DNA from: Limnoperna fortunei
Lineage: Eukaryota > Mollusca > Bivalvia > Mytilida > Modiolidae
Length of the DNA stretch: 64,000 nucleotides
Direction of reading: 5' to 3'
NCBI GenBank assembly: GCA_944474755.1
Contig: OX104114.1
Coordinates: forward strand, 26,373,220 to 26,437,219
Below, piece by piece: positions 7,062 to 53,787 of this stretch (the first letter of the stretch is position 1; each line of letters begins with the position of its first letter). The notes beneath the pieces were generated by a model. That model was not told where the DNA came from. It made no database searches and saw only the letters and a list, made by a program, of their open reading frames with translations. A program made the translations under genes and the position numbers.

Positions 7062-7211
7062 AAGTCGCCCAAAACGAAGTTTTGTCGACTTATTGTTTTT
7101 TGCACCGTTTCTTCTTATTAAGTCGCCGACCACGAAGTGTCGGGCGACTTATTGTTTTTACTCCGTTTCTTATTATTATTAAGTCGCCGACCACGAAGTG
7201 TCGGGCGACTT
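7062..7211 (+). repeat. three 5' hairpin units (class V, class I, class I)
   Basis: Hairpins lie at 7062-7091 (left arm AAGTCGCCC, AAAACGAAGTTTT tip), 7120-7150 and 7181-7211 (AAGTCGCC/GGCGACTT with a CACGAAGTG tip). Each is followed by ATTGTTTTT-CTCCGTTTCTT (GCACCG in the first) and ATT repeats. The first is the leftmost unit of the array and is the only one with its right arm eroded to GTCGACTT. Confidence 0.8.
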
Positions 7212-7235: not shown

Positions 7236-7914
7236 ATGTCTCCCAAACGAAGTTTTGGGAGACATATTGTTTTTGTCCGGTTTCTTATTATTATTCTTCT
7301 TCTTTCTTTTTTCTTTTCGTTCAATCTTGTCCGCACATTTTCTCAGAGACGCAATGTCCAATCAAGATGAAACTTTGGGAACATGTTAAGGGTGACCTGA
7401 AGTTGTGCAATCCACTTTTGAAATTTTCAAAATGACCGCCATTTTCAAAATGGCCGCCGTTGAAAAAAAATGACTACCGTTGTCAAATCTCAGTAATTGC
7501 CAAAGAAATTTCAATGAAAATTGGTATACTGATACAGCTAACTATCCTGAGCATTTTTGCAAAAAAAAATTTGACGCGACCGACATTTCAAAATGGCCGC
7601 CATCCGAACACCACCCCCCTAAAAATGCAAAAATTTAAACGTCATCCGATTTAGACGAAATTTGGTATACCGGTAGCTTATGATACTATGAGTGTGCCAC
7701 TATTTAAAAATTTTTTGTCCGACTTCCGGTTTCAAAATGGCGGCCATTTTACTGCAGGAAAAAATCAACTTTGTCCAATTTCAACAAAATTTGATTTCTA
7801 GGCATATTTTAATGTACTGATTTGAATGAAATACTATCCATAAGGATTATAGTGGCAATGGGGGTTCGTTTGGGAGACATTCTGTGTTGGCATCCCAACA
7901 CAATCAGCACTAGT
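7236..7914 (+). mobile_element. F3 element, short form, both ends present
   Basis: The 5' hairpin ATGTCTCCCAAA/TTTGGGAGACAT is at 7236-7265. The 3' subterminal TTCGTTTGGGAGACAT (7865-7880) is the exact reverse complement of its first 16 bases. The 3' hairpin TGTGTTGG-CATC-CCAACACA is at 7883-7902, and the terminus is AATCAGCACTAGTT. The head contains a pyrimidine-rich stretch and GTTCAATCTTGTCCGCAC. Compared with the copy at 45406-46711 it lacks about 630 bp of internal core modules. No coding. Confidence 0.75.
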
Positions 7915-7929
7915 TATTATTATTATTAT

Positions 7930-8702
7930 TTTCATATTTCTTATGTTTTCCCCTCGCAATGTTGTCCGCTCGTTTTCTCGCTCATCTTTTAACCGATCGA
8001 AATGAAACTTTGGGAACATGTTAAGGGTGACCTGAAGTTGTGCAATCCACTTTTGAAATTTTCAAAATGAACGCCATTTTCAAAATGGCCGCCGTTGAAA
8101 AAAATGACGGCCGTTGTCAGATCTCAGTAATTGCCAAAGCAATTTCAATGAAAATTGGTATACTGGTACAGCTAACTATCCCGAGCATTTTTGCAAAAAA
8201 AAATTTGACGCGGCCGACATTTCAAAATGGCCGCCATCCGAACACCACCCCCCTAAAAATGTAAAAATTTAAACGTCATCCGATTTAGACGAAATTTGGT
8301 ATACAGGTAGCTTATGATACCCTAAGTGTGCCACTATTTAAAAATGTTTTGTCCGACTTCCGGTTTCAAAATGGCGGCCGTTTTAAAGTTTTACAAAATG
8401 GCGGCCGTTGTCAGATCTCAGTTATGGCCAGAGCAATTTCAATGAAAATTGGTATACTGATACAGCTAACTATCCTGAGCATTTTTGCAAAAAAAATTTT
8501 TTGTCCGACTTCCGGTTTCAAAATGGCGGCCGTTTTAAAGTTTGCTCGTTTTCTCGCTCATCTTTTAACCGATCGAAATGAAACTTGGCCAACTGAAAGC
8601 TCATGTTATGAAGTTGTGCTCTTGACTTTTAGTTCCCTCTACTCGGTCAAAAGTGCTGAACGGCAGGCGACTTCAACGTTTCGGGAAACGTAAATTTTAA
8701 TT
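7930..8702 (+). mobile_element. F1 element
   Basis: The head TTTTCATATTTCTTATG follows (ATT)n. A 43-bp direct repeat beginning GCTCGTTTTCTCGCTC flanks the core (near 7969 and 8544). The tail has GGCGACTT, then CGTTTCGGGAAACG (8677-8690) and TAAATTTTAATT. Private changes: AAATGAACGCC in the first core motif, and GTGCTGAACGGCAGG in the tail where other copies have GTGCGGAACGGGAGG. No 5' hairpin directly precedes it. Confidence 0.75.
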
Positions 8703-8733
8703 AAGTCGCCGACCACGAAGTGTCGGGCGACTT
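8703..8733 (+). repeat. class I 5' hairpin unit
   Basis: A single AAGTCGCC/GGCGACTT hairpin fused directly to the TAATT end of the preceding F1, with the standard spacer after it. It is directly followed by a class II hairpin. Confidence 0.8.
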
Positions 8734-8757
8734 ATTGTTTTTACTCCGTTTCTTATT

Positions 8758-9262
8758 AAGTCTCCCAAACGAAGTTTGGAGACTTATTGTTTTTACTCTG
8801 TTTCTTATTATTATTATTCTTCTTCTGGTTTCCCCGTAGAGATTTCCGACACTTTTCTCAGAAACCGTAAATGGGATCAATTTGAAACTTGGTAGGATGT
8901 TAGACCCTATTGGCTAGATGTGCAATCATCTTTCGGAATTTCCAAGATGGCCGCCACTTTCAAAATGGCCGCCATTTAAGTTTTCCCGCCAAAATGCAGT
9001 TCCCGGAGAACCGCCAGATGGATTTCGATGAAACTTGGTATGTAGGTTCAGCATAGTGGTCTTGATTTATTTTTGGCAAAAAATCGCGCGCGAACCTGCC
9101 GCCATTTTCAAAATGGCCGCCGAATCGCCAAAAATTCAAGTTTGTCGGATTTCAACGAAAATGGGTTTTAACAGTAAATTTGGTATGCCGAGTCCAATGG
9201 TCAACTCAGAATTTTTATACGACGCGCCATTTTTTGTAAAATGGCCGCCAAAGTTGCCAAAT
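8758..9262 (+). mobile_element. F2 element, 3'-truncated
   Basis: It starts with the class II hairpin AAGTCTCC/GGAGACTT (8758-8785), then the CTCTG spacer, (ATT)n and the head CTTCTTCTGGTTTCCCCG. It breaks off inside the core after AAGTTGCCAAAT and the next F2 head begins at once with TCTGGTTTCCCC, so its 3' end is missing. Confidence 0.75.
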
Positions 9263-10065
9263 TCTGGTTTCCCCGTAGAGATTTCCGACACTTTTCTCAG
9301 AAACCGTAAATGGGATCAATTTGAAACTTGGTAGGATGTTAGACCCTATTGGCTAGATGTGCAATCATCTTTCGGAATTTCCAAGATGGCCGCCACTTTC
9401 AAAATGGCCGCCATTTAAGTTTTCCCGCCAAAATGCAGTTCCCGGAGAACCGCCAGATGGATTTCGATGAAACTTGGTATGTAGGTTCAGCATAGTGGTC
9501 TTGATTTATTTTTGGCAAAAAATCGCGCGCGAACTGGCCGCCATTTTCAAAATGGCCGCCGAATCGCCAAAAATTCAAGTTTGTCGGATTTCAACGAAAA
9601 TGGGTTTTAACAGTAAATTTGGTATGCCGAGTCCAATGGTCAACTCAGAATTTTTATACGACGCGCCATTTTTTGTAAAATGGCCGCCAAAGTTGCCAAA
9701 TGGGCAAAAATTCAACATTGTCATAATTCAACGAAAATAGGTTCTAAAAGTAAATTTGGTATGCCGAGTTCAACGGTACACTCAGATTTTTTATACGACC
9801 CGCCATTTTTTTAAAAATGGCCACCAAAGTCGCCAAATCGGCAAAAATTCAACATTGTCGGAACTCAATGAAAATTGGTTCCTAAAGTAAATTTAGTATG
9901 TCGAGTTCAATGGTCAACTCAGAATTTTTATATGACGCGCTATTTTTTGTAAAATAGGTGAATAGCAACCTGTAAAGTCAAATATAAGGTGATTCACAGG
10001 CTGCACAGGACTATCAGTAACTTCGTTTGGGAGACTTCACGTTTCGCGAAACGTAAATTTTAATT
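9263..10065 (+). mobile_element. F2 element, 5' hairpin missing, internal deletion
   Basis: The head joins the broken preceding F2 at about 9263. The 3' subterminal AACTTCGTTTGGGAGACTT is at 10019-10037 and the 3' hairpin CGTTTCGCGAAACG at 10040-10053. Near 9955 TGTAAAAT jumps directly to AGGTGAATAGC, deleting the part with CATGTGGGACAGG present in longer copies. Confidence 0.75.
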
Positions 10066-10849: not shown

Positions 10850-10993
10850 AAGTCGCCGACCACGAAGTGTCGGGCGACTTATTGTTTTTACTCCGTTTCT
10901 TATTAAGTCGCCGACCACGAAGTGTCGGGCGACTTATTGTTTTTACTCCGTTTCTTATTATTAAGTCGCCGACCACGAAGTGTCGGGCGACTT
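10850..10993 (+). repeat. three class I 5' hairpin units
   Basis: Hairpins at 10850-10880, 10905-10935 and 10963-10993, spaced 55 and 58 bp apart; the difference is one ATT triplet. Confidence 0.85.
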
Positions 10994-11035
10994 ATTGTTT
11001 TTACTCCGTTTCTTATTATTATTATTATTATTATT

Positions 11036-11818
11036 ATTTTCATATTTCTTATGTTTTCCTTTTTCCCCTCGCAATGTTGTCCGCTCGTTTTCTCGCTCAT
11101 CTTTTAACCGATCGAAATGAAACTTTGGGAACATGTTAAGGGTGACCTGAAGTTGTGCAATTAACTTTTGAAATTTTCAAAATGGCCGCCATTTTTAAAA
11201 TGGCCGCCGTTGAAAAAAAATGACGGCCGTTGTCAGATCTCAGTAATTGCCAAAGCAATTTCAATGAAAATTGGTATACTGGTACAGCTAACTATCCCGA
11301 GCATTTTTGCAAAAAAAAATTTGACGCGGCCGACATTTCAAAATGGCCGCCATCCGAACACCACCCCCCTAAAATTGTAAAAATTTAAATGTCATCCGAT
11401 TTAAACGAAATTTGGTATACAGGTAGCTTATGATACCCTGAGTGTGCCACTATTTTTAAAATTTTTGTCCGACTTCCGGTTTCAAAATGGCGGCCGTTTT
11501 AAAGTTTTACAAAATCGCGGCCGTTGTCAGATCTCAGTTATGGCCAGAGCAATTTCAATGAAAATTGGTATACTGATACAGCTAACTATCTTGAGCATTT
11601 TTGCAAAAAAAATTTTTTGTCCGACTTCCGGTTTCAAAATGGCGGCCGTTTTAAAGTTTGCTCGTTTTCTCGCTCATCTTTTAACCGATCGAAATGAAAC
11701 TTGGCCAACTGAAAGCTCATGTTATGAAGTTGTGCTCTTGACTTTTAGTTCCCTCTACTCGGTCAAAAGTGCGGAACGGGAGGCGACTTCAACGTTTCGG
11801 GAAACGTAAATTTTAATT
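11036..11818 (+). mobile_element. F1 element, CTTTTT-head subtype
   Basis: The head carries the extra bases TTTTCCTTTTTCCCC. The core has CTATTTTTAAAATTTTTG in place of the usual CTATTTAAAAATGTTTTG, a variant it shares in type with 20353-21119 and 58611-59385. The 3' hairpin is at 11793-11806. Confidence 0.75.
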
Positions 11819-12609: not shown

Positions 12610-13231
12610 TTTTCATATTTCTTATGTTTTCCCCTCGCAATGTTGTCCGCTCGTTTTCTCGCTCATCTTTTAACCGATCGAAATGAAACTTTGGGAACAT
12701 GTTAAGAGTGACCTGAAGTTGTGCAATCCACTTTTTAAATTTTCAAAATGGCCGCCATTTTCAAAATGGCCGCCGTTGAAAAAAAATGACGGCCGTTGTC
12801 AGATCTCAGTAATTGCCAAAGCAATTTCAATGAAAATTGGTATACTGATACAGCTAACTATCTCGAGCATTTTTGTAAAAAAAAATTTGACGCGGCCGAC
12901 ATTTCAAAATGGCCGCCATCCGAACACCACCCCCCTAAAAATGTAAAAATTTAAACGTCATCCGATTTAGACGAAATTTGGTATTCAGGTAGCTTATGAT
13001 ACCCTGAGTGTGCCACTATTTAAAAATTTTTTGTCCGACTTCCGGTTTCAAAATGGCGCCCATTTTACTGCAGGAAAAAGTCAACTTTGTCCGATTTCAA
13101 CAAAATTTGATTTCTAGGCATATTTTAATGTACTGATTTGAATGAAATACTATCCATGGGGATTATAGTGGCAATGGGGGTTCGTTTGGGAGACATTCTG
13201 TGTTGGCATCCCAACACAATCAGCACTAGTT
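12610..13231 (+). mobile_element. F1-head/F3-tail chimera
   Basis: The head is F1 (TTTCATATTTCTTATG). After GGTTTCAAAATGGCG the sequence switches to the F3 tail (ACTGCAGGAAAAAGTCAAC, then GGGTTCGTTTGGGAGACAT, hairpin TGTGTTGG/CCAACACA, CTAGTT). Its 5' and 3' ends therefore belong to different subterminal-repeat classes. A near copy lies 1,584 bp downstream. Confidence 0.75.
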
Positions 13232-13262
13232 AAGTCGCCGACCACGAAGTGTCGGGCGACTT
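13232..13262 (+). repeat. class I 5' hairpin unit
   Basis: A hairpin fused to the CTAGTT end of the chimera, followed by the standard spacer and then a truncated F1. Confidence 0.8.
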
Positions 13263-13285
13263 ATTGTTTTTACTCCGTTTCTTAT

Positions 13286-13413
13286 TAAATGAAACTTGGC
13301 CAACTGAAAGCTCATGTTATGAAGTTGTGCTCTTGACTTTTAGTTCCCTCTACTCGGTCAAAAGTGTGGAACGGGAGGCGACTTCAACGTTTCGGGAAAC
13401 GTAAATTTTAATT
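13286..13413 (+). mobile_element. F1 3' fragment
   Basis: Only the last 128 bp of F1 are present (from AAATGAAACTTGGCCAACTG to TAAATTTTAATT). The hairpin spacer joins it at TTATTAAATGAAAC. The marker GTGTGGAACGGG instead of GTGCGGAACGGG is shared with 14870-14997. Confidence 0.75.
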
Positions 13414-29759: not shown

Positions 29760-30208
29760 AAGTCGCCGACCACGAAGTGTCGGGCGACTTATTGTTTTTA
29801 CTCCGTTTCTTATTATTAAGTCGCCGACCACGAAGTGTCGGGCGACTTATTGTTTTTACTCCGTTTCTTATTATTAAGTCGCCGACCACGAAGTGTCGGG
29901 CGACTTATTGTTTTTACTCCGTTTCTTATTAAGTCGCCGACCACGAAGTGTCGGGCGACTTATTGTTTTTACACCGTTTCTTATTATTAAGTCGCCGACC
30001 ACGAAGTGTCGGGCGACTTATTGTTTTTACTCCGTTTCTTATTATTAAGTCGCCGACCACGAAGTGTCGGGCGACTTATTGTTTTTACTCCGTTTCTTAT
30101 TATTAAGTCGCCGACCACGAAGTGTCGGGCGACTTATTGTTTTTACTCCGTTTCTTATTAAGTCGCCCAAAACAAGTTTTGGGAGACTTATTGTTTTTGC
30201 ACCGTTTC

Positions 30209-30254
<46 letters not shown>

Positions 30255-30338
30255 GTCGCCGACCACGAAGTGTCGGGCGACTTATTGTTTTTACTCCGTT
30301 TCTTATTAAGTCGCCGACCACGAAGTGTCGGGCGACTT
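29760..30338 (+). repeat. array of ten 5' hairpin units
   Basis: Starts at 29760, 29818, 29876, 29931, 29989, 30047, 30105, 30160, 30253 and 30308. Spacing is 58 or 55 bp. Nine are class I. The eighth (30160-30189) is class V-like (AAGTCGCCC, tip AAAACAAGTTTT, right arm GGGAGACTT with one mismatch) and is followed by GCACCG and a long (ATT)n tract. The fourth unit's spacer is ACACCG. Confidence 0.9.
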
Positions 30339-34375: not shown

Positions 34376-35441
34376 AAATCCCCGACCACGAAGTGTCGGG
34401 GATTTATTGTTTTTGCACCGTTTCTTATTATTATTATTATTATTATTCTTCTTCTTCTTCTTCTTCTTCTTCTTCTTCTTCTGGACCTAACTTTGTCCGT
34501 AGGATTTCTCGAAGACGAAAAGACATAGGTCAATGAAACTTACCAGAAAGATAGGTCACCACTAGGAAATGTTGTTTCCGATTTCGAAATTTTGAAAATG
34601 GCGGCCATCTTGGATTGGCGGCCATTTTGAATTTGAAAAAAATACAAAATTAATCATAAAAAATCACAAACAATATGGATATGAACCAAAATAGGTTTAT
34701 AGGTCAATATTAAGGTCCCGGACAATATGGGACCATTTTCCGAAAAATCCAAGATGGCCACCATATTCAAAATGGCCGCCAAAGTGCGAAAATTGAAAAG
34801 TTGTCCGATTTCAACGAAAATTGGCATTTAGGTCAATATTGATATTACGAACAACATGGTGACATGTTCGAACAAATCAAAGATGGCCGCCAAAGTCCAA
34901 GATGGCCGCCATATTCAAAATGGCCTCCAAAGTGCGAAAATTGAAAAGTTGTCCGATTTCAACGAAAATTGGCATTTAGGTGAATATTGATATTACGAAC
35001 AACATGGTGACATGTTTGAACAAATCCAAGATGGCCGCCAAAGTCCAAGATGGCCGCCATATTCAAAATGGCCGCCAAAGTGCGAAAATTGAAAAGTTGT
35101 CCTATTTCAACGAAAATTGGCATTTAGGTCAATATTGATATTACGAACAACATGGTGACACTTTCGAACAAATCCAAGATGGCTGTCATATTCAAAATGG
35201 CTGCCAAAGTGCGAATATTGAAAAGTTGTCTGATTTCAACAAAAATTGGCATTTAGGTCAATATTGATATTACGAACAACATGTCGAACAAATCCAAGAT
35301 GGCTGCCAAAGTCCAAGATGGCCGCCATATTCGAAATGGCCGCCAAAGTGCGAAAATTGAAAAGTTGTCCGAATTGTGACAAAAGTGGGCACGGGAGGGG
35401 ATTTTTTTGTGACTTGCTTGCAATCACAATCAGCACTTGTT
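34376..35441 (+). mobile_element. F4 element, complete
   Basis: The class IV hairpin AAATCCCC/GGGGATTT is at 34376-34405, with GCACCG in the spacer, (ATT)n and then (CTT)n (34448-34481), and the head GGACCTAACTTTGTCCGTAG. Core modules repeat about every 130 bp with AATTGGCATTTAGGTCAATA and CAAGATGGCCGCC. The 3' subterminal GGGGATTT (35397-35404) precedes the hairpin TTGTGA...TTGCTTGCAA...TCACAA (35407-35429) and AATCAGCACTTGTT. Confidence 0.8.
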
Positions 35442-37219: not shown

Positions 37220-38000
37220 TTCTTTTCCACACATTTTTCTTAATCGTGAACTTGTCCGACACATTTTTTGAAAACGCTTTGACCAATCAAGATAAAACCT
37301 GCTGAGGTGGGTGGAGGGTCACTCAGAGGTGAGCCATCCACTTTTGAAATTTTCAAAATGGCCGCCATTTTCAAAATGGCCGCCGTTAAATATTTTTGGC
37401 CTCCTCTCAGATCTCGGAGATGGCTGGATGGATTTTAATGAAAATTGGTACACTGGTAAAGTTAGCCATTCTGAGCAGTGTGGCGAAAAAAAATTTGATG
37501 CGAACGCCGCCATTTTAAAATGGGCGCCGTTTTACCACATCCGCCGCCCAAAAACGTCAACTTCGTCCGATTTCAAAGAAATTTGATTTCTAGACGTATT
37601 TTGATGTACTGAACCTGCTGAGGTGGGTGGAGGGTCACTCAGAGGTGTGCCATCCACTTTTGAAATTTTCAAAATGGCTGCCATTTTCAAAATGGCCGCC
37701 GTTAAAGATTTTTGGCCCCCTCTCAGATCTCGGAGATGGGTGGATGGATTTTAATGAAAATTGGTACACTGGTAGAGTTAACCATCCTGAGCAGTATGGC
37801 GAAAACAAATTTGATGCGAAAGCCGCCATTTTAAAATGGCCACCGTTTTACCACACCCACCCCCAAAAACATCAACTTTGTCCGATTTCAACGAAATTTG
37901 ATTTCTAGAGGTATTTTGATGTACTGATTTGAATGGAATACTATCCATGGGGATTTGGGCGACTTCTGTGTTGGCATCCCAACACAATCATGTTTAATTA
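37220..38000 (+). mobile_element. F5 element
   Basis: The head TCTTTTCCACACATTTTTC follows ATT repeats. Two core modules of about 310 bp each start at AACCTGCTGAGGTGGGTGG. The 3' end has TTTGGGCGACTT, the hairpin TGTGTTGG/CCAACACA (37967-37986) and AATCATGTTTAATT. The 12-base subterminal is the reverse complement of the class V left arm AAGTCGCCCAAA, but no class V hairpin is adjacent. Confidence 0.75.
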
Positions 38001-50776: not shown

Positions 50777-50806
50777 ATGGCTCCCAAACGAAAGTTTGGG
50801 AGACAT
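50777..50806 (+). repeat. class VI 5' hairpin (TGGCTCCCAAACG)
   Basis: ATGGCTCCCAAAC, GAAA, GTTTGGGAGACAT: a stem with one G/A mismatch, since the right arm still has the class III GAGACAT. The left arm TGGCTCCCAAACG (50778-50790) is the exact reverse complement of CGTTTGGGAGCCA at 53740-53752, the 3' subterminal of F6. I take it as the 5' end of F6, now separated by two F4 copies. Confidence 0.65.
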
Positions 50807-52808: not shown

Positions 52809-53787
52809 TTTTCTTCTCCTTTCCGCCAAAATTTTGTCCGACCGTTTTCTCGGAGACCATAAATTGGATCATTATGAAACTTCACCCAAAAATAGGTCAT
52901 GACTTGAAGTGGTGCCTTCAAGTTTTAAAATTTTGAAATTGGCGGCCATCTTGAAATGGCGGCCATTTTGAAAACGAAAAAAATCCTTTAAAATCCAAAA
53001 GTTAACGGATTTCAACGAAAATTGGAATATAAGTAGGGTATGTTATACCGCACCATACGGCGCACATGTTGTCTTTTTGTGGCGGCCATTTTGAATCCAA
53101 GATGGCCGCCAAAAATTCAAAATGCTCGGAATCACACGAAACTTGGTTTTTACGTAGATTACCATGATGCGGTCAGATGTTAGTCATCAAAATTGGAATT
53201 TGAACATGGCGGCCATCTTAAAATGGCGGCCATTTTGAAAATGAAAATAAATCCTTAAAAATCCAAAAGTTAACGGATTTTGACGAAAATTGGAATATAG
53301 GTAGAGTATGTTATACCGCACCATATGACGCACATGTTGACTTTTTATGGCGGCCATTTTGAATCCAAGATGGCCGCCAAACATTCAAAATGCTCGGAAT
53401 CGCATGTAACTTGGTTTTTAGGTAGATTACCATGTCGCGATAAGATGTTAGTCATCAAAAGTTGAATTTGAACACGACAGCCATCTTAAAATGGCGGCCA
53501 TTTTGAAAATGAAAATAAATCCTTAAAAAACCAACAGTTAACAGATTTCAATGAAAATTGGAATACAAGTAGAGTCTGTTATACCGCACCATATGACGCA
53601 CATGTGGACTTTCTATGGCGGCCATTTTGAATCCAAGATGGCAGACAAAACTGAAAAATGCTCCGATTTGCTTGAAACTTGGTTTCCTGGTAGATAAAGT
53701 TGCTGTGAATGGATGTCTGAACTCGAGTGTCCACGGGGGCGTTTGGGAGCCAGTTATGATCCATAAGATCATAATCATGTTTAATTA
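52809..53787 (+). mobile_element. F6 element body and 3' end
   Basis: The head TTTCTTCTCCTTTCCGCC, then three diverged modules of about 240-260 bp, each with AAGTTAACGGATTT or a variant, TATACCGCACCATA and GGCGGCCATTTTGAATCC. The 3' subterminal CGTTTGGGAGCCA (53740-53752), hairpin TTATGATC-CATAA-GATCATAA (53754-53774) and TCATGTTTAATT follow. It is the only F6 in the window and the most diverged between its own modules, so probably old. Confidence 0.75.

Follow-up and report, generated by a model that had tools for sequence, protein, structure and literature searches.

The Helitron2 elements described by Bao and Jurka (2013, PMC3627910) carry at the 5' end a repeat that pairs with the bases downstream of it, forming a 5' hairpin, and a second copy of this repeat at the 3' end, upstream of the 3' hairpin. 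The sections of that paper on which we draw report compensatory mutations and suggest that the 5' hairpin might be lost, and the end point set, when the two copies pair with each other.

The window, by which we mean the whole stretch of 64,000 nucleotides of the Limnoperna fortunei genome analysed here (C4:26373220-26437219), holds many small Helitron-type transposons, apparently nested by self-insertion. Judged by their sequence anatomy, these are non-coding transposons of the Helentron/Helitron2 type, and their ends have the anatomy already published for Helitron2 and Helentron as "asymmetric terminal inverted repeats" (ATIRs); the kind is ordinary, but as a test case this locus is unusually clear. 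A scan of the window against Rfam at gathering thresholds gave no match. The principal features, with the families designated by F numbers and all positions counted within the window, are:

7236 to 7913, + strand: F3 non-autonomous Helentron/Helitron2-type element between TT and TT, recognised by comparison of copies and by identity to the element on contig C7; it terminates in ACTAG, followed by TT.
7236 to 7251, + strand: F3 left arm (5' ATIR), in the 5' hairpin directly after TT.
7254 to 7265, + strand: F3 local right arm of the 5' hairpin.
7865 to 7880, + strand: F3 distal arm (3' ATIR), 16/16 complementary to the left arm.
7884 to 7901, + strand: F3 3' hairpin, GTGTTGGCATCCCAACAC.
8758 to 10063, + strand: F2 element, with 5' hairpin 8758-8785, distal arm 10019-10037 (19/19) and 3' hairpin 10039-10054.
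10963 to 11816, + strand: F1 element, with 5' hairpin 10963-10993, distal arm 11782-11789 (8/8) and 3' hairpin 11792-11807.
12610 to 13411, + strand: composite of an F1-type head and a mismatched F3 3' end (13183-13222), after which come TT, an F1 5' unit (13232-13262) and a mini-F1 ending in an F1 3' end.
29760 to 30338, + strand: stacked array of 5' hairpins (seven F1, one F5, two F1).
30160 to 30189, + strand: F5 5' hairpin, mismatched at position 6 of the local arm.
34376 to 35439, + strand: F4 element, with 5' hairpin 34376-34405 and distal arm 35397-35404 (8/8).
37954 to 37965, + strand: F5 distal arm, matching the F5 left arm at 12/12; read as a bracket, it closes the nest that begins with the unit at 30160.
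50777 to 50806, + strand: F6 5' hairpin, mismatched at position 4 of the local arm.
53740 to 53752, + strand: F6 distal arm, matching the left arm from the second base on and closing the nest F6(F4(F4 F4)F4)F6.

A sequence-only reading of the window had stated for six families that the left arm recurs as its reverse complement, once beside itself and once before the 3' hairpin. This was borne out for F3 (7236-7251 against 7865-7880, 16/16, the local arm ending at 7265) and for the other five families as that reading gave them, with the refinements that the distal match comprises 8 nt only in F1 and F4 and begins at the second base in F6.

As in Helitron2, hairpins stand at both ends of the elements, and the arms, which begin at the flanking TT and measure 8-19 nt, are placed like the asymmetric inverted repeats of 8-15 bp described for that group. 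The distance from the distal arm to the 3' end is 27 nt in F1, 26 in F2, 33 in F3 and 35 in F4, the last two lying slightly outside the range stated in the consulted part of PMC3627910. Unlike the Chlamydomonas examples given there, which insert between TTTT and T or C, the present elements insert at TT, mostly inside TTA tracts. Insertion at TT is characteristic of Helentron/HINE elements (Thomas et al. 2014, PMC4067079) and DINE-1 (PMC2374699), and here TT precedes the 5' arm in 28/28 F3 copies and follows ACTAG in 26/28, the exceptions being L006 (TC) and L023 (altered end). According to the cited portions of these two papers, the likeness extends to the subterminal inverted repeats (subTIRs), the neighbouring inverted repeat, the 3' stem-loop, the internal microsatellite, the central repeats, and a partner encoding Rep, helicase and endonuclease. 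The Helentron/HINE family rule of 11 bp of identical subTIR holds in F2, F3, F5 and F6 (at least 11 bp), whereas the arms of F7 measure 10 nt and those of F1 and F4 only 8. Of the hallmarks of canonical Helitrons (Helitron1), i.e. a 5' TC, a 3' CTRR and insertion between A and T, the elements show a different set: their 5' ends begin with AA or AT and they insert at TT, although F3 and F7 nevertheless end in CTAG. Within the central repeats, palindromic motifs resembling AAAATGGCGGCCATTTT recur at window positions 7418-9413, spaced by about 143 nt.

A molluscan parallel in described anatomy is Cg_HINE of the Pacific oyster (Vojvoda Zeljko et al. 2020, PMC7492417), with its subTIR, local inverted repeat, microsatellite, central tandem repeats and 3' palindrome, and likewise with element-specific changes in the subTIR and the inverted repeat. 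According to the cited part of that study, Cg_HINEs could not be tied to autonomous elements, whereas two families are assigned here. FoHeli, a Helitron2 of Fusarium (PMC5148889), possesses ATIRs, 5' hairpins and multiple 5' termini, and the portion of that paper used here proposes self-insertion with transposition to the first 3' end. Unlike in FoHeli as described there, 5' units are stacked extensively in the window, which holds 76 of them and 65 3' ends in 64 kb, and the 3' ends nest by family. The compensatory evidence for Helitron2 in the consulted text of PMC3627910 comes from two related elements, while here it comes from seven families of a single genome, two of which have Rep-encoding partners.

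The genome (1.34 billion bases in 285 contigs) was searched with F3 as the query, giving 82 matches from the best 40 of 2494 first-look candidates, and a sample of 264 kb was formed from the window and 20 stretches of 10 kb. As each of these stretches was chosen for containing an F3 copy, the sample is biased toward F3 clusters. Hairpins served to locate the 3' ends, and the 5' units were recognised from a local palindrome with no more than 2 mismatches in 8 together with the tail; the arm then gave each family its name. This selection favours local pairing and not distal pairing, because the 5' units were picked for the local palindrome while the distal arms were not picked for a match to the left arm. 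It produced 285 candidate 5' hairpin units and 286 matches to five types of 3' hairpin, of which 281 and 256 were assigned to families; 4/285 and 30/286, respectively, were unclassified or were palindromes read on the other strand and were excluded from the pair counts. The sample comprises seven families, the seventh (F7) being absent from the list of the sequence-only reading. At one site (L031, minus strand, 3657) an F7 5' hairpin corresponds exactly to the reverse complement of the usual form (15 occurrences), as if it had been inverted in place.

Adjacent 5' and 3' ends belong to the same family in 113 of 119 cases (30/30 in the window and 83/89 elsewhere), compared to a mean of 37.3 and a maximum of 52 in 5000 shuffles, so that the families keep matched ends, as had been claimed. 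The six exceptions, five cases of F1 followed by F3 and one of F5 followed by F7, count against the main explanation. With the distal arm scored at whichever of 14 offsets from the 3' hairpin matched best (an offset that is constant within each family except for one F4 copy), the first 8 distal bases fully match the left arm in 110 of the 113 matched pairs, and the other 3 are single-base F1 variants. Complete agreement of the two F3 arms (16/16) is found in 26/28 copies, with the window copy counted; L014 has an F6-like 5' unit and L020 matches at 15/16. Regarding the 3' hairpins, one type is common to F1 and F2, and the pairs are 53 F1-F1, 15 F2-F2 and zero F1-F2 or F2-F1. The F3 and F5 3' hairpins are identical over 24 nt (55 F3 and 21 F5 ends), with 5 further F5 ends differing in the last letters. 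Since F3 and F5 share the 3' hairpin but differ in their arms, and their Rep domains are 61% identical, it is the arm and not the 3' hairpin that is family-specific.

Over the first eight positions the arms of the seven families vary at positions 2, 3, 4 and 6, and the distal arm tracks the left arm at all four in 7/7 families. The sole failing cell among the 56 left:distal comparisons is position 1 of F6, the outermost distal base, which counts against our main explanation. The local match is complete over the first 8 nt in F1, F2, F3 and F4, the F2 helix having a bulge after position 8 while its distal match of 19 nt runs through the loop. In F5-type units the local arm is mismatched at position 6 in 9/13 and matching there in 4/13, and in F6-type units it is mismatched at position 4 in 14/14, which agrees with the earlier assertion that base changes are matched distally in all six families and locally in most. 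In F5 the distal match is 8/8 and the local one 7/8 in 3/3 pairs. Thus F2, F5 and F6 have an imperfect local hairpin and retain the distal match; the distal match is better kept than the local one, although the local one was selected for.

Covariation was evaluated with one row per family and 8 positions, against 500 shuffles and slid-alignment controls. For left:distal pairing, 98.2% of the cells are paired, with 4 doubly changed positions (reached in 7/500 shuffles), 5 further pair types (28/500) and a covariation score of 0.464 (0/500; slid versions 0 to 0.095). For left:local pairing the values are 96.4%, 3 doubly changed positions (46/500), 4 further types (195/500) and a score of 0.345 (0/500; slid versions 0 to 0.041). 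The score thus lies above all shuffles for both pairings, in line with the covariation that the sequence-only reading had led one to expect, although the seven family rows are few and the count-type measures are weaker than the score itself. The left:distal duplex is predicted, with DNA parameters, to be more stable than the 5' hairpin in 8/8 sequences (the seven families and one F5 variant), by as little as 0.5 kcal/mol in F4 and 1.5 kcal/mol in F7, where the energies of a two-strand duplex and a hairpin are not strictly comparable. By columns, the best partner of each distal arm is the left arm of its own family (8/8, the two F5 forms being tied). By rows, the F5 left arm prefers the distal arm of its variant and the F3 left arm prefers that of F2 (-21.4 vs -20.3 kcal/mol for its own), and the latter counts against the main explanation. 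A structural switch, in which the left arm would pair either locally or distally, as the sequence-only reading had suggested, is plausible from these predictions.

The same reading had taken the arms for a family-specific address used by a trans-acting Rep protein, and support comes from Rep-encoding loci with the same ends (F3 on C7 and C12, F5 on C5) together with the 113/119 matching ends. The Rep profile PF14214 has 147 matches in the genome, some of which lie in open frames longer than 2000 aa. On C7, an F3 5' hairpin (34001224) and an F3 3' end (34010993) flank an open frame of 2292 aa, in the scanned parts of which OTU, Rep (PF14214), PIF1 and Exo_endo_phos domains were recognised; only at C7 were Rep, helicase and endonuclease all recognised, so that this F3 partner has the Rep, helicase and AP-like endonuclease expected of a Helentron/HINE partner. 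The short F3 (7236-7913) is 95.0% identical to the C7 element over 521 bp of the 5' part and 93.9% over 82 bp of the 3' part. The C12 locus has the same F3 ends and a Rep domain 99% identical to that of C7. The third locus, C5:36859359-36873341, has F5 ends with an exact 12-nt distal match and the same mismatched local arm; here the F5 3' end came to light before the F5 left arm, which was then sought upstream and found at 36859359. PF14214 and a partial Exo_endo_phos (23.1 bits, below the 24.5 cut-off) were recognised there, in the scanned Rep and endonuclease parts.

For F1, F2, F4, F6 and F7 no partners were found, and further 3' regions on C4, C13 and C14 contained none of the known ends. 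Another candidate, C5 30299200-30309700, with a frame of 2821 aa (Rep, OTU and an endonuclease tail of 20.0 bits, below the cut-off), was set aside, as the family ends were not found; this frame starts behind an apparent splice acceptor, and a PDB search with its protein returned OTU domains only. In L049 (C5:30299200-30304160), the RepHel frame contains OTU, DUF6570 and Herpes_teg_N-like domains, and about ten near-identical short lysine-rich repeats precede the Rep domain. As to the surroundings of the autonomous F3 elements, the one on C7 (L052/L053) is followed, after one TT, by an F3 copy head to tail, and the one on C12 (L054/L055) has F2 and F1 5' units stacked in front.

The window contains about 76 5' units and 65-66 3' ends, and all 141 ends that entered the bracket analysis, in which a 5' unit opens and a 3' end closes, lie on the + strand. 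Here 51/66 3' ends each close the innermost unit then open in the same family, compared to a mean of 24.4 and a maximum of 39 in 2000 label shuffles; against the main explanation, 14/66 meet another family, 1/66 finds none open and 24 5' units stay open. Over all 21 stretches 184/256 3' ends close the innermost open same-family unit (1000 shuffles: mean 82.2, maximum 105), while 37/256 meet a unit of the wrong family and 35/256 none, which again counts against it. The best non-crossing pairing in the window, with a 5' unit at 7062 added by hand, accommodates 53/66 (60 shuffles only: mean 41, maximum 45). A single strand is used in 20/21 stretches, and of the 281 5' units 154 are preceded by the tail of another 5' unit, 116 by a 3' end and 11 by neither. 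The common orientation would be explained by the fact that TTATTATT presents TT on one strand only, and the bracket-like nesting apparently arose from copies inserting at TT in the TTA tracts of other copies. By eye, the arrays at 29760-30338 and from 41207 look alike (seven F1, then one F5), suggesting a block duplication or an array that moved whole.

Sixteen elements in the 264 kb join an F1-type head to a mismatched F3 3' end, and in 15/16 an F1 5' unit comes after the F3 end, separated from it by TT or TTATT, compared to 8/36 F3 ends with an F3-type head. Most of these elements, which might be read as rule-breakers, therefore look like the first half of a composite, and we rejected that reading for them; the exception, L029:8836-9466, in which plain TTA repeats come next after the F3 end, lacks the F1 unit, so that this mismatched element may have moved as such, which counts against the main explanation. 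Direct closure by a short F1, measuring 154-237 bp between 5' unit and 3' hairpin, is seen in 9/15 (three of these have 1-2 additional stacked F1 units before it), and the remaining 6/15 lead into other nested insertions or reach the limit of the stretch. The sample has 13 short F1 elements, 9 behind F3 ends of F1-headed elements and 4 elsewhere; these four, all of the 216-230 class and located behind F1 or F4 ends, count against the main explanation, and because of them the four short F1 of the 228-237 class behind F3 ends may be separate insertions. The 155-class mini-F1, on the other hand, has 5 copies, 5/5 behind an F3 3' end and with 4 different right flanks; one internal deletion common to the copies suggests a single origin. 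This class is the only clear composite among the short F1 elements. It apparently spreads from the F1 5' end to the F1 3' end, ignoring the intact internal F3 end, and its copies could alternatively have spread within larger duplicated blocks.

We consider it rather probable that the matching of the left arm with its distal copy tells the partner RepHel which 3' end closes the element, and that the nests arose by self-insertion into TTA. Once exposed in rolling-circle copying, the 5' arm would give up its hairpin for pairing with the 3' arm and so mark the end point, whereas a 3' end of another family would be read through. As only one strand of a TTA repeat contains TT, new copies would enter the TTA tracts of older copies in one orientation, and self-insertion would build nests of stacked 5' hairpins followed by bodies. 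What is seen is complementarity alone, and inverted binding sites explain the arm matching and the covariation equally well. There is a considerable, though lesser, chance that the arms are inverted double-stranded binding sites of the cognate transposase, as in ordinary TIRs, with their identity under selection and with no end-to-end pairing: different Reps (61% identical) accompany different arms, and the matches in F2 (19 nt) and F3 (16 nt) continue across the hairpin loop, as would also be expected of a long binding site. By themselves, such sites leave unexplained why the left arm should at the same time form one side of a hairpin that is kept by paired changes in F3, F4 and F7. It is very improbable, and already disfavoured, that the matches are functionless, having been inherited from a few ancestors or spread by conversion between ends. 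There are indeed just seven families, with near-identical copies within each, but the arms of different families change in step at four positions while the slid controls do not exceed 0.095, and the F1 and F3 bodies in the window are 93.7% identical over 394 bp, yet their arms differ.

Somewhat doubtful, but to be taken seriously, is the idea that the composites and stacked 5' units reflect unequal crossing-over of tandem copies or side-by-side insertions instead of read-through and nesting. Shared central repeats and long TTA tracts invite such events, the arrays at 29760 and 41207 look duplicated, 4/13 short F1 lie apart from F3 ends, and F1 units directly follow 8/36 ordinary F3 ends; it is harder to reconcile with bracket nesting across families, e.g. 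F6(F4(F4 F4)F4)F6, or with the four right flanks of the 155-class mini-F1. Returning to the arms as an end-choosing signal, we suggest, tentatively and with more doubt than confidence, that the Helentron stop address is arm complementarity and not the 3' hairpin, in view of the shared hairpin with different arms, the mismatched end that would be read through, and the tolerance of local mispairing.

Because the end anatomy and the alternative-pairing switch already appear in the cited sections of PMC3627910, we regard this work as a rediscovery with added evidence and not as a new kind of element. As for nesting and read-through, nothing closer was found than the Fusarium paper (PMC5148889), in the part cited, and we make no claim that the phenomenon is unpublished. 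What is added comprises F7, the 113/119 family-matched pairs, the families with a broken local and a kept distal match, the autonomous loci, the composite and the bracket nesting. For the pile-up of elements in one orientation a simple reason is suggested, namely that they carry their own TTA target along. The choice of the 3' end by Helitron2 and Helentron has been a proposal since 2013, based, in the cited literature as consulted, on few elements. With seven variants of the address, candidate transposases for two families and natural mismatched composites, this locus makes the pairing model directly testable.
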